Assembly (NCBI GenBank): GCA_903850425.1 | Contig: CAINLR010000011.1 | Coordinates: 1 to 64,000, forward strand | Length of the DNA stretch: 64,000 bases | Source of the DNA: an uncultured Verrucomicrobia subdivision 3 bacterium | Lineage (GTDB): Bacteria > Verrucomicrobiota > Verrucomicrobiia > Limisphaerales > UBA11358 | Direction of reading: 5' to 3' | Shown here: in pieces, positions 1 to 16,064 of the stretch | How the letters are laid out: each line of letters starts with the position of its first letter | Numbering within the stretch: position 1 is the stretch's first letter | Program-made: the position numbers and the translations under genes | Notes under the pieces: model-generated | What the model was told of the DNA's origin: nothing | Seen by the model: the letters and a program-made list of their open reading frames with translations, nothing else | Databases searched by the model: none

Positions 1-370
1 CGCAGGTTGTCGGATATTTTCAGGTCTTCTTCACGCTTTCAGGTTGGCGGATGATTCAGCGCGCTGTCCGGCGTTGAACTCCTCGTCGCTAACGCTCCTC
101 GTCGTGGGTTGGTCGGTCATGCTTCCGGCAGCGTGACCGAAGGCCGCGAGACTACGTCCGGCCACATCCAGCATTATGTCCCAGGCTTCACCGAGCCGAC
201 ACTTATACTCGTGCCTCGCATCAAGTATCGGCACGGTTCAGCCAGTGCCCGCTGCCTGACTCGACATTTTCCGCCCGCTCCATTCGCTGCCGCGATCCAC
301 TTCCGGCAGTGGATTGCTTCCACTCATTCCGACAGTCGCAAATTGCCGAGACAGGCATGGATTCAGGCGG
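1..370. repeat. Diverged non-coding direct repeat, copy 1
   Basis: This gene-free stretch aligns with 2222-2580. The first 65 bases match 2222-2286, sharing TTCAGG and GGCGGATGATT blocks. A second block from about 208 (CTCGTGCCTCGC) matches one from about 2430 and ends in TGCCGAGAC. Identity is roughly 70 to 75 percent by eye, with indels between the blocks. A short module (142-164, GGCCGCGAGACT then CGTCCGGCCA) is also shared with 2593-2615 but in a different order. The repeat may continue left of the window. Its function is unknown. Confidence 0.6.
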
Positions 371-666
371 GCACTCCCGTTGGAGAATGATTGGCTCCCT
401 ACGGTCGGGGACAGTTTGCTCGCGTTGCTCGAAAAATAATGGGTTGGTTTTTTGTGAAGGCCGCTTCGTTTTCAAGTCCTTTTTCCACTGCTCACTAAAA
501 CCCCTCTCGCGTGCGGTCGCCTTGTCACGGCCTCGCCTAAAACACCAGCCCGCCATTGCGCGGCTCCTTCTGAAGACTACTTCCACGCAGGAGGGCTGGA
601 GGCTCGGCTTTTTCGCGAACAAGGCGACCGACGGATGAGGGGCGAGCAGTGCATAAAAAAAAGACT

Positions 667-1092
667 ATGAAAACTACATCACAAAAAAAATCGAACAGGC
701 TCCCTCAAGAATCGAAGCTAGTAGTGCCGCAGGCGCAGACACCGGAGGCTGGTGGCCAGACCGGCACGGTCAAGCAAGACACGCGTTTGCCGATTGATTC
801 GGAAGCGCGGATGAAGAATCGCACCATGCCCACCGACAAGGTTTTGGCCTTGTTGCACACGGTTAATCCCGACCTGTTCAATCTCGCCGAGGTTGTCGGC
901 AAGTGGATTTGGGTGCAGTTCAAAGACCAGCCCGCCGCGACGCTCCGGCAGCAGTTGGCGCAGATTGGCTTTCATTGGAACCGTGAGCGGCAGGCGTGGC
1001 AGCATCCGTGCGGCGCGTTTCGTTTGCGCGGCGCAGGCGACCCGCACGAGAAGTATTCGAGTTACTACCCCGGCGACCAGAAACCTGCCTGA
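667..1092 (+). CDS. Conserved-looking hypothetical protein of the mobile element
   Basis: A small protein of 141 residues from the ATG at 667; a GTG at 649, preceded by a GAGGGGCGAG purine run, would add six residues and has the better ribosome site. The first 55 residues are polar and look disordered. The C-terminal half is a compact segment with VVGKWIWVQF, LAQIGFHWNRERQAWQHPCG and a terminal Tyr-rich stretch, a Trp-rich pattern I associate with small uncharacterised proteins of integrative elements. No catalytic motif is visible. It is followed 39 bases later by a sigma-like gene in the same direction, so the two may be co-transcribed. Function unknown. Confidence 0.65.
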   Translation: MKTTSQKKSNRLPQESKLVVPQAQTPEAGGQTGTVKQDTRLPIDSEARMKNRTMPTDKVLALLHTVNPDLFNLAEVVGKWIWVQFKDQPAATLRQQLAQIGFHWNRERQAWQHPCGAFRLRGAGDPHEKYSSYYPGDQKPA

Positions 1093-4051: not shown

Positions 4052-4084
4052 GAACTCTTGAGGAACTTTTGAGGAACTCCTGGC
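4052..4084. repeat. Three tandem 11-base repeats
   Basis: GAACTCTTGAG (4052-4062), GAACTTTTGAG (4063-4073) and GAACTCCTGGC (4074-4084) stand head to tail. A related 20-base pattern, ACTCTTG-N5-CTTTTG, recurs at 4165-4184 and 4268-4287, about 105 bases apart. They lie just beyond the 3' end of the replication-like operon. Spacing is not a multiple of three, so they are not a coding repeat. They could be iterons for a replication or partition protein; this is inference. Confidence 0.45.
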
Positions 4085-4436
4085 CCAACTCGGCCCATGA
4101 ACGCCGTTTTCTGTAAAACCGTAACTTTACCCCAGTTCCGCCCACCCTTTCGGCCAAACTGTTACACTTCTGTGCCACTTTTGTATAACCGTCAGAAAAA
4201 ACCCCGGCTGCCAGATACACCCCACTCTTACCCCACTCTTGCCTAACCGGTCCGGCCAGAATGGTATACTCTTGGGCTACTTTTGGACTACTGATGATCC
4301 AATCGGCAGCGGCAAACTACGCGTGCCACCGCGAACCATTCCACCATGGTGGACATTTCAGCTTCACGTTCGAAGGGCACAATTGTGCACCTACTACGGA
4401 CACCATCTGTGTCAGGCACCCGGAAACGGCTACCTG

Positions 4437-4868
4437 TCACAGCCCGTGATCATCACTGGTGGCGGGTTGGACTCCCTCCCATCGGTTCAACATTTCAGTC
4501 GCGGCGGCAACGATGCGGCGGAGCGTCACAACCTCGTTGTCGGCAATTCCATTTTGGCAGACAGCTTTATCGGCACGGTTCAAAGCTTGCCAGGTCAAAG
4601 CCAGATCCCGTTCCAGCGATGTTCGTTCCGGTCGAAGTCCCTGTGGACGCGCTGGGTAGGTTTTTCCGTCCATGCCGATGCGCCGATCATCGGACGGCGT
4701 CGTGCCACGTGCCAAATGCCGATAGGCGGTGCGCAAACTGAGTTGGTGTTCGGCGGCCATGGCCTTCGCGGTCTGTGACAGGTTCGGACAAAACGACCCT
4801 GACTCAGAACTTTGTGACAGGCTAATGCTACCGCATCGTGACACGTTTTCTGAATTGAGTTCGCTCAT
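4437..4868 (-). CDS. Small helix-turn-helix protein, last gene of replication-like operon
   Basis: A 143-residue protein whose ATG overlaps the stop of the preceding gene (ATGA at 4868-4865), a sign of translational coupling. After a polar N-terminus, residues about 32 to 55 (TAKAMAAEHQLSLRTAYRHLARG) form a likely helix-turn-helix. The remainder is predicted helical and includes RDLALTWQALNRADKAV and VTLRRIVAAATEMLNRW. As the terminal gene of a primase/ATPase operon it could bind the iteron arrays at 5102-5338 or its own 5' region, which contains three TGTGACAGG-like repeats (4774, 4813, 4837). No named family recognised. Confidence 0.65.
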   Translation of the reverse strand: MSELNSENVSRCGSISLSQSSESGSFCPNLSQTAKAMAAEHQLSLRTAYRHLARGTTPSDDRRIGMDGKTYPARPQGLRPERTSLERDLALTWQALNRADKAVCQNGIADNEVVTLRRIVAAATEMLNRWEGVQPATSDDHGL

Positions 4869-5392
4869 ACAACTTCGCCCTTTCTGTCGGCAGATTCAGC
4901 TGCTTTGAACTGGTCGGCGCTCGCCGCCGCCATCCATGAACGCACCTCGGCGCGGGTTTGATCCACACTCTGCCCACCTTTCCACCAGTGATACTTCGGA
5001 TCGCTCGCGAATGGGATGGATAGATCGCCGCCGGGGGTGAAAAACGGCTTCGGCAACTCGGCGGGTGCAGCTTGGATCTCGGAAACGTTCGTATTTCCCT
5101 GATTCCCCCTGTCCCCCCTGTGGTCCAAATCATCATTCCCCCTGTAAAACCCTATATTCCCCCTGTGACCCCCTGAGGTTTCCACTTTTCCCTCTGTAGT
5201 GCATTTTTTTCCCTTTACCCCCTCTTCTGAAATAATTTCATTTTTTAACAAATATACAGAACTACAGGGGGCCACAGGGGGAATCAGCGTTTTTACAGCA
5301 TTTTCTCCCGGAGTGGCCTCAGGGGGATCAGGGGGAATAAGGGGTTTTTGAGTATTTTTCCGGACCGACTTGAGCCAATCAATTGAGTTCAT
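4865..5392 (-). CDS. Hypothetical protein encoded across an iteron-like array
   Basis: A 175-residue protein starting at MNSIDWLKS; I chose the ATG at 5392 because AAAGGA lies a few bases upstream and it overlaps the end of the ATPase gene by 14 bases. The N-terminal tail is a short amphipathic segment, the middle is low complexity with RGN repeats (HRGNIGFYRGN, HRGDRGNQGN), and the C-terminus holds a small conserved-looking block (FFTPGGDLSIPFASDPKYHW, RAEVRSWMAAA). The RGN repeats are the translation of DNA repeats listed at 5102-5338, so the central coding sequence may be constrained as DNA rather than as protein. Stop overlaps the next start. Confidence 0.6.
   Translation of the reverse strand: MNSIDWLKSVRKNTQKPLIPPDPPEATPGENAVKTLIPPVAPCSSVYLLKNEIISEEGVKGKKCTTEGKVETSGGHRGNIGFYRGNDDLDHRGDRGNQGNTNVSEIQAAPAELPKPFFTPGGDLSIPFASDPKYHWWKGGQSVDQTRAEVRSWMAAASADQFKAAESADRKGEVV
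5102..5338. repeat. Inverted iteron-like array around an AT-rich core (candidate replication origin)
   Basis: On the left are CCCCCTGT at 5105, 5114, 5138 and 5159 and CCCCCTGA at 5169. On the right are the reverse form ACAGGGGG at 5264 and 5274 and TCAGGGGG at 5319 and 5328. The extended 11-mer ATTCCCCCTGT is exact at 5102-5112, 5135-5145 and 5156-5166, and appears inverted as ACAGGGGGAAT at 5274-5284 and TCAGGGGGAAT at 5328-5338. Several spacings are near 10 or 21 bases, about whole helical turns. Between the arms, 5177-5262 is strikingly AT-rich for this GC-rich region. The array lies inside a coding sequence of the primase/ATPase operon. Origin function is inferred. Confidence 0.55.
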
Positions 5393-6785
5393 AGTTATTT
5401 CCTTTGCCGTAGATTTCGTAGAACGAGATGTTGTGGCCATTGCCGCTGGTGCTGATGCGCGTGTCGCGCACCACCCGGAAGTTGCCGCCATCAAACGGGT
5501 ATTCGCCATCATTTGGAAACCGCGATTTCATCACTTTGCCCACCCGCAGTTTATTCTGCTGCTCATCACCGTCCAGCAAGCCGGCTTCGGCACCAATTTC
5601 CGCCAGGCTGGAAGCGGTCAATTCGCCGCGTGTTTCGCCTTCCGACACCACCCGGAATAAATTCCGCAGCAGATCGTGATTGGGATCGGCCAGACGTTCC
5701 TGGGCTTCTTGATGCGAAGCATCCAACAGCGGCAATCCCGGGAAATGATTTTCCAAGATCCACGCGCAGGCTTTTTCCCATTGCGTGAAGCGGAATCCCG
5801 TCAACTCTTTCCCGGCCGGCCGGCCTTGATCTGCCCAGTCTTTGACCAGGCTGAACACGGCACCGAGGTAAAGACGCATGTTGGCGACGAGGTGGTCTTC
5901 GATGCTGCCTTCGGCATATTCCGCAAACTTGTAGTCGGCTGGACGCTTCCGGATGTAAATCTTCACCGTGCGGCTCGCCAGATCGCGCGAAAACACCGCG
6001 CCGTTGCTTGATACCGCCAGCACCCGGCGCGTCACATCGGCTTCTCCGTGCAGATACGGTGCCCGGCAGTTGAAGATCGGTTCGGTGAGCAGCGATTCCA
6101 GTTCGGGCAGATTTTGCAGGCCTTTCCCACGCGCGTTGTCGAAGTAAATAAAACCGGCGCCGCTCAAGAGCAGCCGCGATATGTCCTCCACCGCCTTGTC
6201 CTTGTTGTCGAGCCGGCTGATCGGCTTGGGCTTCAACCCGTAAATCTGGCAGGCCAGGCGCAGCATGAGCGAGCCGCCGGTGCTGGCCTCGCTTTTCTCG
6301 ATCAGAAACAGTGGCACCCGTCCCTTTCCCAGAAAACCGCCTTGGGCCAGCGCCGGCGACAGCAATAACGAAATCGCCCGGCCCAGATCACCATTCGACC
6401 CAAAGTCGTAGTCGCCCAGCAAACGCACAATGATTTCCACCGCCTCCGCCGGCGTTGGCAGCGTCAACGTCTCCCCGTCGGCCAGGATGCGAAGTTCGCG
6501 GTCGTAGCGGTTGACCAACACCGCTTTTTTTCCGTCCCAAGCCAGCACCGGCACATTCGAAAACACATCCACCGTCCTGACCAAATCCGGCGAATTCGGT
6601 GCCGATGTGATAAACACCCGCGCATCCGCTTCCATGAAACTCGACCGCAACTCTTCACCCTTGCGGTTCTGCGTCATAAACCGGCACCGCTCCGGATGAT
6701 CCAAATACGAAACCATCGCCGCCGCATCCTGCGGATGCAGTCGGCCGTCATAGAGTCGGCATAATTGTTTGGAATAGCTATACAA
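5379..6785 (-). CDS. Helicase-like ATPase of mobile-element replication module, degenerate Walker A
   Basis: A 468-residue cytoplasmic protein. Residues about 155 to 180 (PLFLIEKSEASTGGSLMLRLA) stand where related element ATPases have GxxGTGKS; here the P-loop lysine is absent. About 45 residues on, GFIYFDNARG matches a Walker B-like hhhhDN. Then RRVLAVSSNGAVFSRDLASR matches the sensor/arginine-finger block with the SNN-DLxxR pattern of this class. The N-terminal 140 residues look like a separate domain. It follows the Toprim protein by 15 bases and overlaps the iteron-bearing gene. I infer a replication helicase or loader, possibly with impaired ATP binding; a non-replicative role is possible. 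Confidence 0.6.
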   Translation of the reverse strand: MYSYSKQLCRLYDGRLHPQDAAAMVSYLDHPERCRFMTQNRKGEELRSSFMEADARVFITSAPNSPDLVRTVDVFSNVPVLAWDGKKAVLVNRYDRELRILADGETLTLPTPAEAVEIIVRLLGDYDFGSNGDLGRAISLLLSPALAQGGFLGKGRVPLFLIEKSEASTGGSLMLRLACQIYGLKPKPISRLDNKDKAVEDISRLLLSGAGFIYFDNARGKGLQNLPELESLLTEPIFNCRAPYLHGEADVTRRVLAVSSNGAVFSRDLASRTVKIYIRKRPADYKFAEYAEGSIEDHLVANMRLYLGAVFSLVKDWADQGRPAGKELTGFRFTQWEKACAWILENHFPGLPLLDASHQEAQERLADPNHDLLRNLFRVVSEGETRGELTASSLAEIGAEAGLLDGDEQQNKLRVGKVMKSRFPNDGEYPFDGGNFRVVRDTRISTSGNGHNISFYEIYGKGNNYELN

Positions 6786-6800
6786 GGAATCGGCGACCGC

Positions 6801-7775
6801 TTACCACACCTGCCGAGTCCAAATTCCCGCCGGCTCATCGTGGTCGATTTTGCGACCGGTTTCCTCCGGGCTGTCGCCCTGGTTGCGGCGCGCGGCCAGC
6901 GCTTTTACCGCTGCCTCGACATCCTTGTTCAAGGCGCTCCGGCTCAGCCCCAGCTTCTTTTCCGCAAACTTCAGCACGCGGTCTTGGTCGAGCGCGTGCT
7001 GGTTGAAGGCCGCGGCCAGTTTCACCAGCCGCTGCTCCAAATCCCGTCGTGCCTTGCCGGTCAGGTTGACCATGGCGGTCGCCTCCCGCTCAAACAACTC
7101 CATCATCAGCAGCTTGGCATCCGCGTCGGGCTTAACCTCGATCGCTTGCGCGATCCGCTCGCGCCACCAATCATTGAATGTTGCACCCAACTTGGCGCGG
7201 CAATCGTCAGCGCCCTTGCCAGGGCCATCCAGCGGAATGCGCGGCAACAAAACCGGCAGCGGTTGCACTTGGTTCGCCAGACGAATCGCTGCAATGGGAA
7301 AGAAGTAATTCAGCGCCGTGTCCGAATCGCCGCAAAACAAAATGCGCGTCGGCTTGCGCCGCTCGATGACGGCGGCCAGTTCCGGCACGAAACCTCCGTT
7401 GTCTTTTTTGCCGAATCCATAAAAACCGGAAATGCCCACCGCCGGAAAACCCGCCTCCGTCTGCGACAACGATTTGAATTCGCCCTCGATAATAATTAAA
7501 TCGCCGCCAACGGTGGTGTCGTCAGCAACCGTCGGCGGCAGGTAGGCATGCACATTGGTGCCGGGTGCCTGATAATATTTCATGTCGCCGCGCGGCTGGT
7601 CCAAACGCAGTCGGCCATAATCCTTGTCGCCGTCGCGGATCACGCTGCCGGCGGCGTTACGATAGGGCAGCCACAGGCCGGACGAATCCAGTCCACAAAG
7701 GGCTTTGGCCTCGTCGGCGCTGACGTGCTGCACACCGGCGCGCGCCAGCATCTCGTTGGAAATTCCCGGTCGCAT
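6801..7775 (-). CDS. Toprim-domain primase-like protein (DUF3854 type)
   Basis: A 324-residue protein with a Toprim-like core: GGDLIIIEGEFKSL (residues about 91 to 105) supplies the acidic EGE strand and RILFCGDSDTALN (about 145 to 157) supplies the DxD motif. This combination, with the preceding LWLPYRNAAGSVI and YYQAPG segments, is typical of DUF3854/Toprim primase-like proteins of plasmids, phages and integrative elements. The C-terminal third is helical and resembles the primase-helicase linker. No zinc-binding N-terminus is seen. It sits upstream of the ATPase gene, so the two together probably make the element's primase-helicase unit. Confidence 0.7.
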   Translation of the reverse strand: MRPGISNEMLARAGVQHVSADEAKALCGLDSSGLWLPYRNAAGSVIRDGDKDYGRLRLDQPRGDMKYYQAPGTNVHAYLPPTVADDTTVGGDLIIIEGEFKSLSQTEAGFPAVGISGFYGFGKKDNGGFVPELAAVIERRKPTRILFCGDSDTALNYFFPIAAIRLANQVQPLPVLLPRIPLDGPGKGADDCRAKLGATFNDWWRERIAQAIEVKPDADAKLLMMELFEREATAMVNLTGKARRDLEQRLVKLAAAFNQHALDQDRVLKFAEKKLGLSRSALNKDVEAAVKALAARRNQGDSPEETGRKIDHDEPAGIWTRQVW

Positions 7776-7883: not shown

Positions 7884-8186
7884 TCAGTTCAAGCTGGGGT
7901 CCGAGGGCGGGTTTTGGAGATTCCGGCACAGCAGCGTTGCTGCCGGTAGGCGGCACGGCAGGGTCCGCGCCTGGAGAAATTTCTCCACCGCGGCGACCGA
8001 GTAAAAGACCGTCCCACCGCCGCGCTTTGCGGCGGGGTTGGATTTGAAGCGCGGGATGCGCGCCGTGTCGAACCAGCCCCGCAGCGTTTCATGGCTGGGG
8101 ACCGGCGTGAGGTGGGCTGGAATCAGGGTTTTAGCCAATTGATCCAGCGTGGCTAGACGGGCGGATTGAGTTTTGTTCGCATTCAT
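7884..8186 (-). CDS. Small HTH / excisionase-like DNA-binding protein
   Basis: A 100-residue basic protein, first gene of the minus-strand operon. SHETLRGWFDTARIPRFKSN followed by GTVFYSVAAVEKFLQARTLPC reads as a winged-helix of the MerR/excisionase kind, in which the second part inserts a small wing and recognition helix. It begins 15 bases downstream of a near-consensus promoter on the minus strand (TTGACA at 8229-8224, 17-base spacer, TATTAT at 8206-8201). Role as recombination directionality factor or replication regulator is inferred from size, fold pattern and position in an integrase-bearing element. A 108-base gap separates it from the Toprim gene. Confidence 0.6.
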   Translation of the reverse strand: MNANKTQSARLATLDQLAKTLIPAHLTPVPSHETLRGWFDTARIPRFKSNPAAKRGGGTVFYSVAAVEKFLQARTLPCRLPAATLLCRNLQNPPSDPSLN

Positions 8187-8199
8187 ACCAAAGTAGATG

Positions 8200-8243
8200 T
8201 ATAATAGGTAAAGCTGCCAATTGTGTCAAATTAAAGTTGATAC
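8200..8243. promoter_or_regulatory. Divergent promoter-operator between HTH operon and XRE regulator
   Basis: Minus strand: TTGACA (8229-8224), exactly 17 bases, TATTAT (8206-8201). Plus strand: a perfect TATAAT at 8200-8205. An inverted repeat GTGTCAA-N7-TTGATAC (8223-8243, one mismatch) overlaps the minus-strand -35 box and is a natural operator for the neighbouring XRE protein, which would then repress the replication operon. Binding is inferred. Confidence 0.6.
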
Positions 8244-8259
8244 CGTTCGCACATCGGGT

Positions 8260-8976
8260 ATGGTTGAATCAATGCAACGCTCACCTTTGCTTCATCCTTT
8301 GGCCATTCTGAGAAAGATCGTCGGCCTGACTCAAAAAGAAATGGGCGACCTCGTCAACCGCGCCGCTCGCACCATCCAATCCATCGAACTGAACAAGCTA
8401 CCCCTCACCGAAGAACTCGCTTTGCGGATTGCTGAAGCCACCGGTGTGGATGAAGCCTGGCTGTTCGCAGGCGATCCCAGTGTCCCGCCGCAAAAGGGCG
8501 TGACCCTGTTTAACACCGGGCGTGGGGATGGCGAATACACCAAGGCCGACTACGAATTTTACCGCGCCTATGTGGAGACCAAGTTGTGGGACGACAAAAC
8601 ATTCGCCGCAACTTTGAAAAAGGCTCAGGCGGAAGGTAAGCAAGCGGAGGTGGTTGAACTCATGGAAACCAAGGTGGATCTGATGGCCAGACAGCAGTGG
8701 TTCGTGGAAAACGCGGACCAGATTCTGATTACTGAGTTCCAGTTGATTTTGGCCGAAACCAAGTTAACCGACAACCAGCGGCTCGCGCGCTGGAAAATTC
8801 GCCGGTTCTTGGATGATCTCGCCAAAGAGTTTTCCATCAACATCCCCAAGTTGAAGACTTCCGTCGGCGTGAACGAATTCGCGAACTTCCCACCACCGGC
8901 CGGGCAAAATGCCGCCGAACCGGCGGCCAGTCCTGCACCCGCCAAGAATCCTGATCCCAAGTTGCCGCCAAGCTGA
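8260..8976 (+). CDS. XRE-family transcriptional regulator
   Basis: A 238-residue protein from the ATG at 8260; ATG 8272 is an alternative, and an upstream TTG at 8221 is unlikely because it lies in the operator. Residues 10 to 65 form an XRE helix-turn-helix (LRKIVGLTQKEMGDLVNRAARTIQSIE then LTEELALRIAEATGVDEAWL). The remaining 170 residues are helical and end in a Pro/Ala-rich tail. No protease or metal motif is seen, so this is not a classic LexA/CI self-cleaver. It faces the primase operon across the operator at 8223-8243 and probably keeps it off. It could also influence the restriction genes downstream. Confidence 0.75.
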   Translation: MVESMQRSPLLHPLAILRKIVGLTQKEMGDLVNRAARTIQSIELNKLPLTEELALRIAEATGVDEAWLFAGDPSVPPQKGVTLFNTGRGDGEYTKADYEFYRAYVETKLWDDKTFAATLKKAQAEGKQAEVVELMETKVDLMARQQWFVENADQILITEFQLILAETKLTDNQRLARWKIRRFLDDLAKEFSINIPKLKTSVGVNEFANFPPPAGQNAAEPAASPAPAKNPDPKLPPS

Positions 8977-9352: not shown

Positions 9353-9415
9353 GGCACGACGAGTTCGCGCCTTTTCTTTTTTAGATTTCCCGTGACTGGC
9401 TCGCCGCAGTCACAC

Positions 9416-11023
9416 ATGCCTACCCTCAACTGGATCGGAAAAGAAGCCGTCGTGAATCATCATCACGCCGTTCCGTTTCATTTGCTGCGCGATGTCCCGG
9501 ACCTTTCCGTTGGCGATCCCGGCAGTGGCAATCTCATCGTGCAGGGTGACAATCTCGTCGCGCTCAAGGCGCTGCTCCCTTACTACGCCGGCCAGGTCAA
9601 GTGCATCTACATTGACCCGCCCTACAACACAGGCAATGAAGGCTGGATTTACAACGACAACGTCAACAGCCCGCTCATCCGCGACTGGCTCGGCAAAACG
9701 GTCGGCAAGGAAGCCGAAGACTTATCCCGTCACGACAAATGGCTGTGTTTGATGTATCCGCGACTGGCGTTGCTCCGGCAATTCTTGCGCGACGATGGAG
9801 TTGTTTTCATCAGCATTGACGACAACGAAGTGCATTCACTCCGTTATCTCATGAATGAAATTTTCGGCGCTCAAAATTTCAAAGCGTGTATTACTTGGCA
9901 GCGAAAATACAGCGTAAGCAATAATTTCAAGGGAATCGCAACCATTGTTGACTACTTGCTTGTCTATTCAAAAACGCCCTCATTTCAAAATAATCTTCTG
10001 TCTCGCTCAGACGAGTCAATTGCCCGTTACAACAATCCAGACGATGACGCCCGTGGCCCTTGGAAGGCTGTGGATTATTTAAATCAGGCGACACCGGAAA
10101 AACGACCAAATTTATGTTACGACATAACCAATCCGAACACTGGCGAGATAATCAAAAACACAAAGAAAGCTTGGAAATATGAGCATTCGGTTCATCTCGC
10201 ACAAGTCGCTGAAAAACGTCTTTGGTGGGGAGCTAAAGGAACAAATACAGTTCCTGCTCTGAAACTTTTTTTGTCAGAAGTTCGGCAGGGCATGACTCCG
10301 CATAATTGGTGGTCGCACGACGAAGCTGGACACACAGACGAAGCAAAAAAAGAAATTGATCGTTTATTGGGTGAGCACGGATTTGATACGCCAAAGCCTA
10401 CACGCCTGATTGAACGCATTCTTCAAATTGCCACCAATCCCGGGGATTTGGTTTTGGATTCGTTTGCCGGCAGCGGCACGACTGGCCACGCAGTTTTGAA
10501 TTTGAACAAGGCAGACGGTGGCAACCGCAAATTCATCCTCGTTGAATTGGAATCCAAAATTGCGCGCGACATCACCGCCGAGCGCGTCAGGCGCATTGCC
10601 CAGGGATTTACAAACGCCAAAGGCGAGACGGTCAAAGGCATCGGCGGCAGCTTTCGTTTCTGCGAACTCGGCGAGCCGTTGTTTGACGAACACGGCCAAA
10701 TCAAACCATCTGTGCGGTTCGCGGATTTGGCGCGGCACGTTTATTTCACCGAAACCGGCGAGCCATTGCCGCGCGAGCGCGTGCTGAAATCGCCGTTGAT
10801 TGGCGAATGTCGCGGTGTCGGCATTTATCTTTTGTTCAACGGCATCTTGGGCGATAAGAGCGCGAACGGCGGCAACATTCTGACGCGCGCCGTGCTGGCG
10901 CAGTTGCCCAAGTTTGACGGCCAGAAAGTGATTTATTGCGCCGGCTGTCTGCTGGGCAAAGACCGGTTGCAGGCCGAGCGCATCATCGTCCGCCAGACGC
11001 CCTACGAAATCAAAGTGGCATGA
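9416..11023 (+). CDS. mod: Type III restriction-modification methyltransferase (Mod)
   Basis: A 535-residue site-specific DNA methyltransferase that modifies the recognition site and supplies specificity to the Mod-Res complex. CIYIDPPYNTGNEGW (residues about 63 to 77) is the catalytic motif IV DPPY of N6-adenine enzymes, and VLDSFAGSGTTGHAVL near residue 350 is the AdoMet-binding motif I, giving the beta-class order seen in Mod subunits. The central segment, about bases 9850-10430, carries the target-recognition domain and is much richer in A and T than either flank, as expected of a swapped specificity domain. I chose the ATG at 9416 over a GTG at 9392. The stop overlaps the res start (ATGA). 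Confidence 0.9.
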   Translation: MPTLNWIGKEAVVNHHHAVPFHLLRDVPDLSVGDPGSGNLIVQGDNLVALKALLPYYAGQVKCIYIDPPYNTGNEGWIYNDNVNSPLIRDWLGKTVGKEAEDLSRHDKWLCLMYPRLALLRQFLRDDGVVFISIDDNEVHSLRYLMNEIFGAQNFKACITWQRKYSVSNNFKGIATIVDYLLVYSKTPSFQNNLLSRSDESIARYNNPDDDARGPWKAVDYLNQATPEKRPNLCYDITNPNTGEIIKNTKKAWKYEHSVHLAQVAEKRLWWGAKGTNTVPALKLFLSEVRQGMTPHNWWSHDEAGHTDEAKKEIDRLLGEHGFDTPKPTRLIERILQIATNPGDLVLDSFAGSGTTGHAVLNLNKADGGNRKFILVELESKIARDITAERVRRIAQGFTNAKGETVKGIGGSFRFCELGEPLFDEHGQIKPSVRFADLARHVYFTETGEPLPRERVLKSPLIGECRGVGIYLLFNGILGDKSANGGNILTRAVLAQLPKFDGQKVIYCAGCLLGKDRLQAERIIVRQTPYEIKVA

Positions 11024-13704
11024 TCACACCGAAACCCTATCAAACGCGGGTGCTGGATTCGTTGCAGGATTTTTTCCGTCTCGCCGCGCGGGAGCAGAAT
11101 CCTGAGCCGGCATTTCGTGAAATCACCGCGCGCACGTTCGGCACGGCCACGCCTTATATTCCAGTGAGCGTCGCCGGCATGAAGCCGCAGATGCCTTATG
11201 TCTGCCTGCGCGTGCCGACTGGCGGCGGAAAAACCTTGCTGGCCTGCCATGCAGCGGGACTGGCCATGACAGATTTCATGCGCGCCGAGCGCGCGGTGGT
11301 GCTCTGGCTGGTGCCGAGCAACACGATTCTGGATCAAACCGCCGATGCCTTGCGCGATCCGCGCCATCCGTATCGCCGCGCCCTGGAACTGGCGTGCGGC
11401 TCGGTGGAAGTGGTGACGATTGAAGAAGCCTTGCGGCTGCCGCGCGCTACGGTGGATGGTCAAACCGTTGTCATCGTCTCGACGATCCAAGCTTTCCGCG
11501 CCGAGGATACCACCGGGCGGAAAGTGTATGACCAGAACGGAAGTTTCTCGGAACATTTGCTGAATGTGCCCGCCGACCGGCTGGCGGATTTGCTGCCGGG
11601 CGCAGACAGCAAACCCAAGCCGTCGCTGGTCAACATGCTCCGCCTGCGGCGGCCCATCGTCATCGTGGACGAGGCCCACAATGCGCGGACGGATTTGAGT
11701 TTTGCCACGTTGGGCAATGTGCTGCCGTCGTGCATCGTGGAATTCACCGCCACGCCCGCGCGCACCGGCCTCGCGCCCTCGAACATCTTACACCACGTTT
11801 CAGCGGCGGAATTGAAGGCGGCGGACATGGTGAAATTGCCGCTGCGCGTCATCACCCGCCATCCCAGCCAGAAGGATCAACTGCTGTCCGAGGCCATCGC
11901 CTTGCGCGGCGACCTGGAAAAAATCGCCATCGCCGAGGCGCAACAGACCGGCGAGTATTTGCGGCCCATCATGCTGATTCAGGCGGAACGCGTGGACGCC
12001 TGCGAGCCGTTGCGGGAACGGTTGGCCAGCGAGTTTGGCATCGCCAAAGACCAGGTGAAAATCTCCGTGGGCAATAACGACGAATTGCCAAGCGCGGAGG
12101 CAATCCGATCCGCCAAAGAACCGGCGGTGCGGTTCATCATCACCGTGCAGAAGTTGCGCGAAGGCTGGGATTGCCCGTTTGCTTATGTGCTATGCAGTTT
12201 GAAGGAGACCCGCTCGGCTACGGCGATTGAACAAATCGTCGGGCGCATTCTCCGGCTGCCCAGCGCCCAAGCCAAGCAGCATCCAGATTTGAATTGCGCG
12301 TATGCGTTCTCGGTTTCGGATTCGTTGCCGGAAGTTTTGAACGAGTTGCGCGAGGCACTGGAAAGCAACGGCTTCACGCGGGCGGAAGCCGAACGGATCA
12401 TCATCCCGGTGTCGCAAGGTTCGTTGCCGCTGGGCGCGCAGCCCAAGACGGTGCAGGTGTTGCCAGCGGACATTGACGTGACGGTGACAAAAACCCAGGT
12501 GCCGGCGCTGGCGGGCAAGGCGCGCATTGATACAACCAGCGGTGCCATCACCGTGCTGGTCCCGCTCGACCAGGTCGAGGCTGAAAAGCTGGCCAGTTGC
12601 GTCAAAACGCCGGAAGCCAAAGCCAAAGTCGCCGAAGCCGTTGAACTGGTGCGCGAGTTGGACAAGGCTTTTGGCGGCAGCGGGAAAACCCGCACGCCGT
12701 CGCCTTATGAATTGCAAATGGATTTCATCGTGCCGCTGCTCTGCGTGCGCGAGGCTGGAATTCTATTTGAGTTTGAAAGCACGTTTCTCCTGGAGCATCC
12801 GTGGAAATTGAGCACCAAGGACGCTTCGCTGGCCGACGGTTACAATCCGCTGAAACGTCCGGCAGGCAAGTCGGGCTTGGTGGACATTGGCACCAAAGGC
12901 GAGGTGCAAACGGAAATGTTGCAGGACAAAGCGGAAACAGATTTCGTGGCGACACTGCATCAGCAGGTCATCGCGCTGGGTGGTTCAGGCGATTGGAAGC
13001 TGGAAGATTTGGTCGGCTGGCTGGACCGGCACATTGACCATCAGGATATTCCCGCCGGCGAATCGGCGGAGTTTTTGCGGCAGGTCATTCGCGGCCTGAT
13101 GGCAAAATATGGCATCGCCGACATCGGCGTGCTGGCGCTGGACCGCTTTCGCTTGCGTGAACAAATTGAGGAACGCATTCAGCAGCACCGCGATGGCGAA
13201 CAGAAAACGGCGTTCCAACAATTCCTGCTGGCCGGTTCCGCCCTGACCGTCAGCGACGAGCGCACGATCAATTTCAAGACGATGAGCTATGAGCCGAGCG
13301 CGCTATACGAAGGCGGCTTCCAGTTCAAAAAACATTACTTCGGCCCCAAACCTGGCGAATTGCCTGAGCAGCGGGCCGATGGGACTCTGCGCGACGAATT
13401 CAAATGCGCGCAATTCCTCGATGGGCTGCCGGAGGTGAAATTTTGGGTGCGGAACCTAGCCAACAAAGCCAGTTCCTTCCGGCTGCAAACCTCGAAGCAT
13501 TGGTTTTATCCTGATTTTCTCTGCCAACTAAATGACGGCCGCGTGCTGCTGGTGGAATACAAGGGCGAACATTTGTTTGCCGATGCTGAAGAAAAGCGCG
13601 CCGTCGGCGCGGTGTGGGAAAGCCGCAGCGCCGGCCAATGCCTATTCGTGATGCCGGAGGGTAAAGACTTGGAAAAAATCCGGCAGAAGATCACCGCACA
13701 ATAA
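11020..13704 (+). CDS. res: Type III restriction enzyme helicase-nuclease (Res)
   Basis: An 894-residue ATP-dependent restriction subunit that cuts unmodified DNA together with Mod. The start MITPKPYQTRVLDSL overlaps the mod stop by four bases. Walker A is PTGGGKTLL (residues 66 to 74), the DEAH-type box is IVIVDEAHNAR near residue 215, motif III-like EFTATPAR follows, and a helicase C-terminal block includes REGWDCPFAYVLCSL and EQIVGRILRLP. The C-terminus has a PD-(D/E)xK nuclease: PD at 831-832 and ExK at 846-848 in LLVEYKG. All motifs are intact, so the system looks functional. As island cargo it probably defends against phage and stabilises the element. Confidence 0.92.
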   Translation: MITPKPYQTRVLDSLQDFFRLAAREQNPEPAFREITARTFGTATPYIPVSVAGMKPQMPYVCLRVPTGGGKTLLACHAAGLAMTDFMRAERAVVLWLVPSNTILDQTADALRDPRHPYRRALELACGSVEVVTIEEALRLPRATVDGQTVVIVSTIQAFRAEDTTGRKVYDQNGSFSEHLLNVPADRLADLLPGADSKPKPSLVNMLRLRRPIVIVDEAHNARTDLSFATLGNVLPSCIVEFTATPARTGLAPSNILHHVSAAELKAADMVKLPLRVITRHPSQKDQLLSEAIALRGDLEKIAIAEAQQTGEYLRPIMLIQAERVDACEPLRERLASEFGIAKDQVKISVGNNDELPSAEAIRSAKEPAVRFIITVQKLREGWDCPFAYVLCSLKETRSATAIEQIVGRILRLPSAQAKQHPDLNCAYAFSVSDSLPEVLNELREALESNGFTRAEAERIIIPVSQGSLPLGAQPKTVQVLPADIDVTVTKTQVPALAGKARIDTTSGAITVLVPLDQVEAEKLASCVKTPEAKAKVAEAVELVRELDKAFGGSGKTRTPSPYELQMDFIVPLLCVREAGILFEFESTFLLEHPWKLSTKDASLADGYNPLKRPAGKSGLVDIGTKGEVQTEMLQDKAETDFVATLHQQVIALGGSGDWKLEDLVGWLDRHIDHQDIPAGESAEFLRQVIRGLMAKYGIADIGVLALDRFRLREQIEERIQQHRDGEQKTAFQQFLLAGSALTVSDERTINFKTMSYEPSALYEGGFQFKKHYFGPKPGELPEQRADGTLRDEFKCAQFLDGLPEVKFWVRNLANKASSFRLQTSKHWFYPDFLCQLNDGRVLLVEYKGEHLFADAEEKRAVGAVWESRSAGQCLFVMPEGKDLEKIRQKITAQ

Positions 13705-13710
13705 ACGCGC

Positions 13711-14982
13711 CTACACCACCCCCTCGACCGCTGGGGCCCCCACATTTGTCGCCAGCTTGGCCGATTTTTTCACCCGTGTTTTTGGCTGTGGTGCTGCCAC
13801 CGGCCGCAGTGCATAAAACTGCTTCGTCTCCGCGCTTGTGACCCGCCCTTGGTAATGTTTCTTGATGATGCCCTCCGAATTGCCGAACTGCTCCGCCGTC
13901 CGCCCATAGCTGCCCGTCAGCCGGAAATAATGCGATATCGCCGTGTGGCGCAAAACATCCGGCACCCACGGCTTCAAGTCCGGCTGTTTCTCGTTCTTTG
14001 GCCCATACCCGGTGACGGCGCGCACTTTTTTGAGATCGGCATCATACGGCGAGCGATAAATCTCACCGGCCTTACGATACTTGGTCAACCACGCCTTGAG
14101 CGTCTTGGAAATCACCACAATCCGCCCCTTGCCGGTTTTGGTCTGCGTTCCCTTCAGGCGAATTTCACCATCGGCTAGATTGACCTGCTCCCACGACAAC
14201 CGCGCCGCCTCAAATGGCCGCAGCCCGCCAAATAGGCAGAGCGCCACATACGGCACGAGATGGCCTTTTTCAAAGTTCTCGGCCGCGCGCAACAGCGCCG
14301 CGCAGTCGTTCACCGGCAGCACCACCGGTTCGCGATCATCATCGCTCGTCAGCCCTTCAATCTCGACGGCGTAGCAAGGATTATTCACACACCAATGCCG
14401 CTTGCCCTTCATGCACCAGGTGAAGAAACTCGAAATCGCCCGGCAATCCGCATCCTTGGTGTTCGCCGACACATTGCGTTGGGCAAGATATTTTTCGATA
14501 TGCTCCGGCAACACATCCGTCACCCGCAGATTACCAACGTTGTTCACGAAGTGCGTCGCCCGGTTGCGTAGATGATATTTGGTCAGTATCCGCAAATCGG
14601 TGGTGGTGGCCAGCCAGTCCACATACGTCTTCAGCGCCTCGTCCAGCCGGGGTGATTCCTTGATGGTTTTAGGTTTGCCGGTCCGCAGCCAATGATCCAC
14701 GGCGGTGATCAAATCACCATCCTGCTCTAGCCGCTTGAAAGCGGCCTCGGCAATGCCTACTTGCTCATCGGTCAGCCGCGTCGCCCGCAATGCCGCCACG
14801 CCGTTGGCCGCATGATATTCACCTTCCAACTCCGTGTGCCGATACTGCGCCTCCTCCGCGCGGGCGAAGTTCTCGCGGATGCGTTCCCCGTTGCGGCGCG
14901 TGCCAGTGACCCGCCAGCTTGGGGTGCCCGTCCGGGGATTGGTGTAGGGCAAAATCTTGAATCGTGCCTTCGGTGCTTTCAT
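13711..14982 (-). CDS. Tyrosine recombinase / integrase
   Basis: A 423-residue phage-type integrase that would catalyse integration and excision of the element. I start at MKAPKARFKILPYTNPRTG (14982); an upstream frame to 15030 adds 16 unlikely residues. An N-terminal arm domain is followed by a SAM-like core-binding domain (ALKTYVDWLA onward) and the catalytic domain: box I arginine in FGGLRPFEAARLSW, a lysine in the GKGRIVVISK hairpin, box II DVLRHTAISHYF, and the nucleophile tyrosine in IIKKHYQGRV. The first His of HxxR is replaced by Asp, and GH of the third box by GN. It ends a few bases from res, converging with it, and lies at the element's right boundary. Confidence 0.9.
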   Translation of the reverse strand: MKAPKARFKILPYTNPRTGTPSWRVTGTRRNGERIRENFARAEEAQYRHTELEGEYHAANGVAALRATRLTDEQVGIAEAAFKRLEQDGDLITAVDHWLRTGKPKTIKESPRLDEALKTYVDWLATTTDLRILTKYHLRNRATHFVNNVGNLRVTDVLPEHIEKYLAQRNVSANTKDADCRAISSFFTWCMKGKRHWCVNNPCYAVEIEGLTSDDDREPVVLPVNDCAALLRAAENFEKGHLVPYVALCLFGGLRPFEAARLSWEQVNLADGEIRLKGTQTKTGKGRIVVISKTLKAWLTKYRKAGEIYRSPYDADLKKVRAVTGYGPKNEKQPDLKPWVPDVLRHTAISHYFRLTGSYGRTAEQFGNSEGIIKKHYQGRVTSAETKQFYALRPVAAPQPKTRVKKSAKLATNVGAPAVEGVV

Positions 14983-15130
14983 TGCCACCCAATATACCCG
15001 ATTTGAAAAGTATTGGCAACCGCAAGGCAACTATTTTTTACAGATTCATCTTATATGGCATATATGCATTTATATTGTGTCCCGTTGGGATTGTCGTAAT
15101 GCGGTTGCGACTTTTCAGATTCGGCACCCC

Positions 15131-15207
15131 CACGCGCCGGGCGGCGGCAGGAATTTCCGCCCGAATTTTTTCGCAATCTCCATCACGCGCGGGATGTCCT
15201 GCGGTTG
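15131..15207 (-). pseudogene. Gene-tail remnant A (cupin-like C-terminus)
   Basis: Read on the minus strand this gives PRVMEIAKKFGRKFLPPP before running to a stop, with an in-frame stop not far upstream. The pattern resembles the C-terminal tail of small cupin-type proteins (inference). It matches remnant B at 16080-16156 over the same 77-base length, about 80 percent by eye. It lies 150 bases from the integrase start. Confidence 0.45.
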
Positions 15208-15287
15208 TTGCGGGTCTTGGCAGACGGTCGCCTGCGTGCCACCTTGGGCTGGATCCAAGCGCGCCGCTCAAGTAAGTTCCGCAACCG

Positions 15288-16064
15288 ATGATGTTGCCGG
15301 ACATTCCCAACTGGCAGATGACCGTGTTTCTCCTGCTTGCGCTGGGAGTGATGGCGTTCGTGATGAAGCTGGTGGCGTTGCTGCTGCCGGCCAAACGCGA
15401 AATTGAGCGAAGCGCCGTGTCGTGGGTGTTGTTTTCGCCCGACTCGGTCATGCGCGCGCAACGGGCAACCGGCGCCGGGCCGGTGGGGCTGCGAATCCTG
15501 ATGCTGTTTGCCGCTGTGTGGTTGAGTTATTGGGCCTATTGGCAACTGGTCCGTGATTTTCAAATTCACGGAATTCTCCTGAGCTATCTGGCCGTGCTAC
15601 TTCTACTGCTGATCGGAGAATCGCTCGTGGCCATTATGAACCTGTTCCTGCTGCCCGGTGGCTGCCTGCTTCCCGCGCTGCATTGCCGTCCGTGGGCGGC
15701 GCGGAGCATTGCGGACTTTTGGGGCAACCGATGGAATCTATGGTTCAGCGACTGGTCTCGCTACGTCATCTTCGGTCGATTACGCCGTCGCCCCCTGTTC
15801 GCGCTGTTCCTGGTTTTTGCGGCTTCCGGCATCGCGCACGAATGCGTGATTAACGTCCCGCTTTACTGTGTCACGGGCAGAATTCTCTTCGGCACGATGA
15901 TGGTTTACTTCCTCCTTCAAGCGGCTGGCATCCTGGTGGAACGCCATTTTCTGAAAGGTTATCCGCGTTTGATGATGCTGTTTGTCTGGCTGGTGGTTTT
16001 CGTGCCATTGCCTTTGGTGCTTAACGAAGGATACCTTCGCGGGCTCCAGCTTTGGCCGGAATGA
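15288..16064 (+). CDS. Wax-synthase / MBOAT-like membrane protein
   Basis: A 258-residue integral membrane protein with about six to seven hydrophobic segments (for example FLLLALGVMAFVMKLVALLL and LLSYLAVLLLLLIGESLVAI). Residues about 143 to 185 contain DFWGNRWNLWFSDWSRYVIF and then FAASGIAHE, matching the FWGRRWN and SGxxHE(His) blocks of the wax-synthase/MBOAT_2 acyltransferase family, whose His is catalytic. It is shorter than usual family members (about 300 to 400 residues). It probably transfers an acyl group to a lipid or alcohol at the inner membrane; the substrate is unknown. It is flanked by two related gene-tail remnants. Confidence 0.7.
   Translation: MMLPDIPNWQMTVFLLLALGVMAFVMKLVALLLPAKREIERSAVSWVLFSPDSVMRAQRATGAGPVGLRILMLFAAVWLSYWAYWQLVRDFQIHGILLSYLAVLLLLLIGESLVAIMNLFLLPGGCLLPALHCRPWAARSIADFWGNRWNLWFSDWSRYVIFGRLRRRPLFALFLVFAASGIAHECVINVPLYCVTGRILFGTMMVYFLLQAAGILVERHFLKGYPRLMMLFVWLVVFVPLPLVLNEGYLRGLQLWPE

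Follow-up and report, generated by a model that had tools for sequence, protein, structure and literature searches.

Layout of the locus

The window (the whole stretch of 64,000 nucleotides analysed here) begins inside an element whose genes and other features are collected in Table 1. Directly behind the ATPase gene, five CCCCCTG units (at 5105, 5114, 5138, 5159 and 5169) face four CAGGGGG units (at 5265, 5275, 5320 and 5329) across an AT-rich centre, just as the earlier note had described. The 89-bp core between the arms is 67% AT, compared with 42% over the neighbouring 1 kb of gene. Pairs with a spacing of 9 or 10 bp account for eight of the nine units, and the order and spacing of units is not the same in the left and right arms. 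The word occurs nowhere else in the element, and the 64-kb window holds only two copies outside the array, at 15791 and 53500. Across the whole 6.9-Mb genome, CCCCCTGNNNCCCCCTG without mismatches is found at two sites, both within the array, and the exact tandem pair with 10-bp spacing is absent outside it; with up to two mismatches, the CCCCCTGNNNCCCCCTG pattern is no commoner in this genome than a reversed control.

Table 1. Coordinates of the element's features in the window
Feature	Position	Strand	Basis or remark
Second array, non-coding, nine ACTYYT units	4053–4285	+	Element backbone, not origin
175-residue ORF	4865–5392	−	N-terminal half is the translated array; C-terminal part holds a conserved domain
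Left arm, five CCCCCTG units	5105–5175	.	Motif positions
Candidate unwinding element: AT-rich core of 89 bp (67% AT)	5176–5264	.	Base composition
Right arm, four CAGGGGG units	5265–5335	.	Motif positions
ATPase/helicase-like protein, putative initiator, homologous to pWTY27 RepA	5379–6785	−	Lacks the Walker-A lysine; has a Walker-B-like FDN
C-terminal winged-helix region of the ATPase (residues 367–460), predicted; candidate iteron-binding domain	5406–5687	−	AlphaFold model and structural match
Primase part, Pfam DUF3854	6801–7775	−	Fused to the ATPase in the sibling; stop at 6801–6803 here
Small HTH protein, presumably AlpA/excisionase-like by position	7884–8186	−	Matches Pfam HTH_17 below cut-off
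Phage-repressor-like HTH protein, divergent from the replication operon	8221–8976	+	
Type III restriction-modification pair, cargo between repressor and integrase	9392–13704		
Tyrosine integrase	13711–15030	−	

The array lies inside a coding sequence, as had been claimed, but not in the middle of the primase/ATPase operon: its ORF follows the ATPase gene and overlaps the 3′ end of that gene by 14 bases. The ORF list places the start of this frame further upstream; we use the ATG at which the sibling's ORF begins. The encoded protein is indeed of low complexity exactly where the DNA repeats lie, one arm being translated as IPPxPP and the other, in a different frame, as RGN/RGD. The conserved domain, TPGGxLxIPFxSDPKYHWWK..., is encoded at about 4868–5077.

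The order integrase, repressor, excisionase, primase, rep and ori is present apart from the cargo restriction-modification genes, where only its position marks the excisionase as such. Another genome carries a sibling element (L009, whose contig is evidently that of G430:C24/L062), which encodes an integrase, a repressor, an HTH protein and an 803-residue primase–ATPase fusion, followed by the same array, the same small ORF and then chromosomal-looking genes; by eye, no head or portal genes were seen in its ORF list. From this gene content and the candidate ends, we take the window element to be integrated, approximately 12 kb or more in length, and satellite-like or plasmid-like.

The relative G403 matches the right flank from about 15141 onward only, which suggests that the right end lies near this position, inside a dispersed repeat. 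We note that window 15131–15213 has copies of 79–92% identity at several places in genomes of the genus, and that the right flank appears to begin within this repeat. As for attachment sites, 10-mer matches between the two element ends are chance-like, and the 64-kb window holds no tRNA; since the contig begins inside the element, no empty site is demonstrable. At the other end, partial copies of window 1–734 (83–98%) occur on six contigs of the same genome (C47, C76, C112, C95, C136 and C2), three of which carry them near contig ends, with weaker copies elsewhere. This module has phage major head and portal genes for neighbours on C47 (L335), which C112 (L337) resembles in this part. The element may be a satellite that has a module in common with prophages, or a prophage end cut by the contig start.

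The second, ACTYYT array contains nine units where shuffles lead one to expect 0.5, all in a single orientation and 11 bp apart within groups. Its region is kept at 70–85% DNA identity in elements with different helicases and origin words (three units in L062, five in L063, eight in L064 and five in L065), and we therefore assign it to the element backbone; regulator, partition or integrase-arm sites are possible roles.

The putative initiator

No known SaPI/SCC Rep family (the SaPI Rep and Cch helicases are of the DUF927 and D5/Primase_Cterm families) was recognised for the window ATPase by Pfam or PDB sequence search, or for the fused protein of the sibling by Pfam or NCBIfam. Relatives of the ATPase give weak VapE-like, DUF5906 and primase_Cterm matches, all below cut-off, and PDB sequence searches with the window ATPase returned no relative. 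The AlphaFold model of the window ATPase is poor as a whole (pLDDT 49), while the ten-residue blocks spanning 371–460 reach pLDDT 72–86; only this C-terminal region was therefore used for fold assignment, and the absence of other folds is uninformative. Its best structural match is Zur, with a middling Z of 7.4 and an rmsd of 2.5 over 70 residues. The region is accordingly modelled as a predicted winged helix and is a candidate for the iteron-binding domain.

An in-frame stop at 6801–6803 splits the primase and ATPase frames in the window, whereas sibling L062 has a single 803-residue ORF. The Walker-A lysine (around residue 170) is missing in both the window and this 85% identical sibling, while the other 20 of 22 aligned members keep it. 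Because of the stop and the missing lysine, the window initiator may be weakened or dead; to judge from the sequences, this copy, perhaps with its lineage, may need a partner helicase or may be decaying. The same two lesions speak for a window copy that is a relic, in which the array is or was an origin and now stands unused beside a broken initiator. However, all nine units are intact in the window, and the sibling keeps both the fused frame and nearly all iteron bases. In addition, the ATPase differs between window and sibling by a pS of 0.42 and a pN of 0.08 (pN/pS about 0.19), a ratio that argues for purifying selection until recently. We hold a relic to be a serious possibility, at somewhat less than even odds.

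Recurrence of the layout behind related ATPases

The ATPase was matched in 23 of 387 genomes searched from the phylum and in 10 of 49 from the family, both sets containing the window's own genome. These matches gave 36 loci including the window and its 85% sibling; the others are 23–41% identical. For 34 of the 36, enough sequence lay behind the ATPase match for a strict detector, which demands that an exact 6-mer of at least three letters occur as a pair at 8–12 bp spacing in both orientations, inside a span of 350 bp. In 18 of these 34 Verrucomicrobiota loci, or 16 of 32 once the window and its sibling are set aside, an array was found between −100 and +1400 relative to where the ATPase match ends, in the helicase gene or shortly after it. 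By comparison, none of 680 dinucleotide shuffles contained one, the remaining ~0.5 Mb of the same loci gave seven matches, and among control loci an array accompanied 2 of 30 integrase genes and 1 of 30 chromosomal dnaB genes. The layout is thus linked to this helicase family.

The strict detector fails at 16 of the 34 loci. Four of these (L047, L068, L069 and L071) fail by its rules and have arrays visible by eye; others, for example L052, L055, L066 and L067, have clear ATPase homology and no array by detector or eye. A second detector match lies downstream in L062. In the sibling contig as L009, a further mirrored array (5768–5930; word GGGACG/CGTCCC) lies in non-coding DNA about 0.8 kb behind the first, and is possibly a second or former origin. 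Very short inverted arrays, with spans below 60 bp, also occur as dispersed intergenic hairpins, which makes the shortest case in the family (L056, 63 bp) uncertain.

The core is AT-richer than the gene in 28 of the 28 loci with a definable core, out of 32 tried. By eye, we also observed a TACCCC/GGGGTA element beside the inner iterons, independent of the word, in several cores (L063–L065, L068, L069, L054, L209 and L218). In one relative (L060, G056:C2), the mirrored array lies inside a 1497-residue ORF, between a helicase part and a part that by eye resembles family-A polymerases, and is translated as GHVGHLGHL and VPNVPKVP.

Beyond these genomes, all three viral-contig relatives carry the layout. 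The single window ATPase as query found no match in viral contigs and, in genome contigs, only the sibling (84%); L065 as query found none in phages and three plasmid-collection records, NBC_01335 among them. Nine of the 14 named plasmid and phage records examined have an array, starting 8 to 518 bases behind the gene. These include all four records matched in the helicase part (pWTY27, NBC_01335, S. cyaneofuscatus and S. rubiginosohelvolus) and five of the ten matched in the primase part only (pSR11, pSR14, pSR31, a Roseomonas plasmid and, weakly, phage M8CR30-2, with four units at +518).

Among these records, the Streptomyces theta plasmid pWTY27 provides the experimental precedent. The published account reports that a 300-bp region behind repA is needed for replication, that a 149-bp part of it is insufficient, and that RepA binds and protects inverted repeats (PMC3583192). 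RepA is homologous to the window ATPase family (hhalign probability 99.7, E 2e-25), and the plasmid's gene order is HTH, primase/polymerase, RepA and then the 300-bp region. Our detector finds 10 units at +52 to +283, five of them GTGGGAAC and the other five reversed.

The word follows the helicase

The words differ nearly everywhere: we found CCCCCTG, CCCCCGA, TGCGCCT, TGCGGCT, TTCCCTA, ACCCCGT, GCGGCAG, CCGCAGC, CCACCCA, TTGGTAG and others. The spacing of neighbouring units peaks at 9 bp (75), 11 bp (32) and 10 bp (24), which is partly a selection effect, as part of the seeds came from the detector demanding 8–12 bp, and near-palindromic words (pSR14, pSR31) are counted twice. Alignment A1 has 22 members, of which 18 were compared after four that lack a word had been set aside: the same 7-mer is shared by 5 of 5 helicase pairs above 60% identity and by 0 of 148 pairs below. 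L049 and L050, with 57% helicase identity, have words one base apart.

One element, L063, separates the helicase from its surroundings. Its integrase (86% amino acid identity), HTH protein (75%) and ORF 649 (64%) resemble those of the window, while its ATPase shares only 35% identity with the window's and no match to the window primase was found in it. The L063 ATPase has 89% identity with its counterpart in L064 and 85% with that in L065; the integrases of these two elements reach only 25–27% identity with the window's, and their word, CCGCAGC, is also that of L063. The C-terminal domain of the array ORF is common to the window, L062 and L063–L065 (55–81%), while the repeat-encoded half has no match in L063–L065. 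With a window-like integrase and the ATPase and word of L064/L065, L063 shows that the word goes with the helicase. On these sequence comparisons, word and helicase are co-inherited and carried along at module exchange between elements.

This linkage bears on what binds the array. The earlier note had named the 143-residue HTH protein encoded at 4437–4868, yet the sibling that keeps the same word has no homologue of it. The more likely binder is the ATPase, since the homologous RepA of pWTY27 binds an inverted array behind its own gene. The array could also be an operator for a regulator of the element, the candidates being the repressor, the AlpA-like protein and the 143-residue protein. Autoregulation of rep by iteron arrays is common, and two HTH-like proteins are encoded upstream, with a third in the earlier note's account. 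An operator is nonetheless very improbable, as the 143-residue protein has no homologue in L063–L065 either, the word is found nowhere else in the element and follows the helicase rather than the HTH/integrase backbone, and the array lies behind the operon rather than at its promoter.

DNA structure and peptide

The inverted arms, together with the G5 tracts of the window word, raise the possibility that the array acts as a DNA structure (a cruciform, a long hairpin or a G-quadruplex) or is a dispersed repeat; folded stem-loop recognition was in fact proposed by the authors of the pWTY27 study (PMC3583192), and hairpins of similar periodicity are dispersed in the window's genome. However, words of other members (AGGCGCA, ATATTCC, TTGGTAG) have no G tracts, the arms differ in the order and spacing of their units, and the units are phased at 9–11 bp, approximately one helical turn (partly an effect of detector selection). 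A dispersed repeat is further opposed by the absence of the exact tandem pair elsewhere in the genome. We consider a purely structural or dispersed-repeat explanation very unlikely, and since so many words are without G tracts, the G-quadruplex is rejected as a conserved feature. As a separate observation, short intergenic hairpins of similarly spaced repeated units lie between phage structural genes in L335 (1480–1528) and L337 (1201–1256); in two stretches that apart from this are 88% identical, the words at the corresponding position are not the same.

Comparison of the window with its sibling reveals substitutions at 2 of 63 iteron bases and 34 of 176 spacer bases (Fisher p = 0.0016; iteron sites defined on the window sequence). 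The spacer changes fall 10/13/11 over the codon positions and thus carry no codon-position signal. Across the array, pS is 0.155 and pN 0.148 (pN/pS near 1), compared with a pS of 0.58 and a pN of 0.22 in the C-terminal part of the same ORF. With so few iteron changes relative to the spacers and no codon-position signal, it is the DNA that is conserved, not the peptide. Of 29 arrays, counting those from named and viral records, 16 can be read from end to end in an open sense frame, where shuffles give 7.1 expected, and 13 have none; translation of the array is therefore common but dispensable. Array peptides are wholly different between relatives (RGN/IPP in some, QQPQQP/CCGGCG in others), so that relatives keep the DNA layout and lose the peptide, the opposite of the outcome that the earlier note had named as refuting. 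Selection on an RGN/PP-repeat peptide with the DNA repeats as a by-product, which could draw on the excess of open frames, is rejected as scarcely credible, given the pN/pS ratio, the even spread of spacer changes over codon positions, arms read in different frames, the dissimilar peptides and the 13 arrays without an open sense frame.

Arrays beside other helicases

A 17-mer back-translated from a peptide motif (TDKTDK/FVSFVS) and matched exactly in viral contigs gave at least 120 stretches. Among the matches listed, a mirrored array lies near the 17-mer in 45 of 80 loci examined; at L120 the array uses a different word, and the choice of loci by the 17-mer itself ensures that one arm has its tandem pair. 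In L098 the array is the tail of a DUF3987 protein (E 1e-62), and in L122 it follows an ORF that is DnaB-like by eye. These two loci have the same word (TGACAAAAC) beside different helicases, which is unexplained if the helicase itself reads the word.

In Verrucomicrobiota genomes, an array accompanies 5 of 24 DUF3987 loci (two of the 24 being pieces of one gene). For VapE it accompanies 3 of 12 loci; G139 and G165 were already in the ATPase set, and G139 is among the three. Both rates are above those of the controls and far from universal. The enzyme of pSR11 belongs to the P4/primase_Cterm family. With DUF3987, DnaB-like and P4/primase_Cterm cases all carrying it, the layout is not tied to one helicase family.

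Comparison with known replication systems

Classical iteron plasmids of the RepE/TrfA kind use a Rep_3-like winged-helix initiator without an ATPase and direct iterons of about 20 bp on one side. In contrast, none of the nine element proteins scanned matches Rep_3, and the array consists of mirrored 7-mers. In lambda, the iterons lie on one side of the AT tract and inside the initiator's own gene, whereas the window has two mirrored arms in a separate downstream ORF. Lambda is nevertheless described as having iterons and an AT-rich tract within a coding sequence, that of gene O (PMC7466680).

The closest likenesses are with pWTY27 and with the PICI/SaPI satellites. Similar to pWTY27, the window has a homologous ATPase, mirrored short iterons directly behind its gene, and a small HTH protein and a primase upstream. 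However, the word is different, the pWTY27 array lies in non-coding DNA rather than in an ORF, and pWTY27 is a free plasmid and not an integrated element. Its primase partner is moreover the bifunctional primase/polymerase RepB; because the partner in the window is DUF3854, we do not class the element as a pWTY27-type replicon.

PICI/SaPI origins are described as an AT-rich region between two sets of iterons, placed directly 3′ of rep, in elements with the order integrase, repressor, excisionase, primase, rep and ori (PMC6092414). The window array shares the two iteron sets around an AT-rich region and the place immediately 3′ of the putative initiator gene, and a PICI-like origin layout is also found in Streptomyces and Salinibacter plasmids. 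On the other hand, the window ATPase matches no SaPI Rep family at threshold and its presumed origin is translated; PICI satellites are induced and packaged by helper phages, whereas the window element is known here from its sequence alone.

Finally, the SCCmec helicase Cch2, perhaps self-loading, is reported to bind repeats directly downstream of its gene through its C-terminal domain, in a manner that needs direct repeats (three iterons) and not inverted repeats (PMC7581432). The location of the repeats is the same here, but Cch2 is a helicase of the D5/Primase_Cterm family bound via direct repeats, and the window array is mirrored. In kind, the array resembles PICI/pWTY27-type origins. Among titles and abstract openings, in a search that left subscription papers mostly outside, we found none on lineage-specific origin words inside coding sequence.

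Proposed function and implications

The earlier note had read the array as an iteron-type replication origin. The recurrent layout, the linkage between word and helicase, and the RepA precedent of pWTY27 support this reading by comparison. We therefore propose, with a probability of roughly 85%, that the array is the origin of an integrated mobile element, or in this copy has descended from one, with the upstream primase/ATPase as its initiator and a helicase-specific word.

In such an origin, ATPase molecules would attach by their C-terminal winged helix to the phased 7-mers of both arms and open the AT-rich core. The ATPase would then load as a helicase in both directions, and the primase would start synthesis; the window copy might itself still be active in this way. 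Selection would hold the DNA of the array and not the encoded peptide and, because the origin lies within an open frame, the array would be translated as a meaningless linker ahead of the conserved small domain. Each helicase lineage would have its own word, carried along when replication modules are exchanged.

A broader proposal, to which we give even odds, is that such self-specified origins span the phylum. Each initiator-helicase lineage would possess a private word of 7–8 bp, set out in phased, mirrored arrays behind or inside its gene and moving with the helicase as a cassette. The array could be translated as a linker, even between the helicase and polymerase-like parts of one protein, as in L060. 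The same grammar would have been taken up by helicase families that are unrelated to each other (D5/P4 primase_Cterm, DUF3987 and the unnamed family of pWTY27 RepA). If word and helicase do form one cassette, many replicons could share a cell without cross-talk.

In sum, the PICI-type origin layout, which has been called unique to PICIs, appears from these comparisons to reach far beyond them, and some of the proteins in annotations appear to be translated origins. An odd low-complexity peptide would thereby become a landmark by which the origins of unstudied mobile elements may be found from sequence, and the many helicase/word pairs would form a natural data set for decoding how a winged helix chooses its word.
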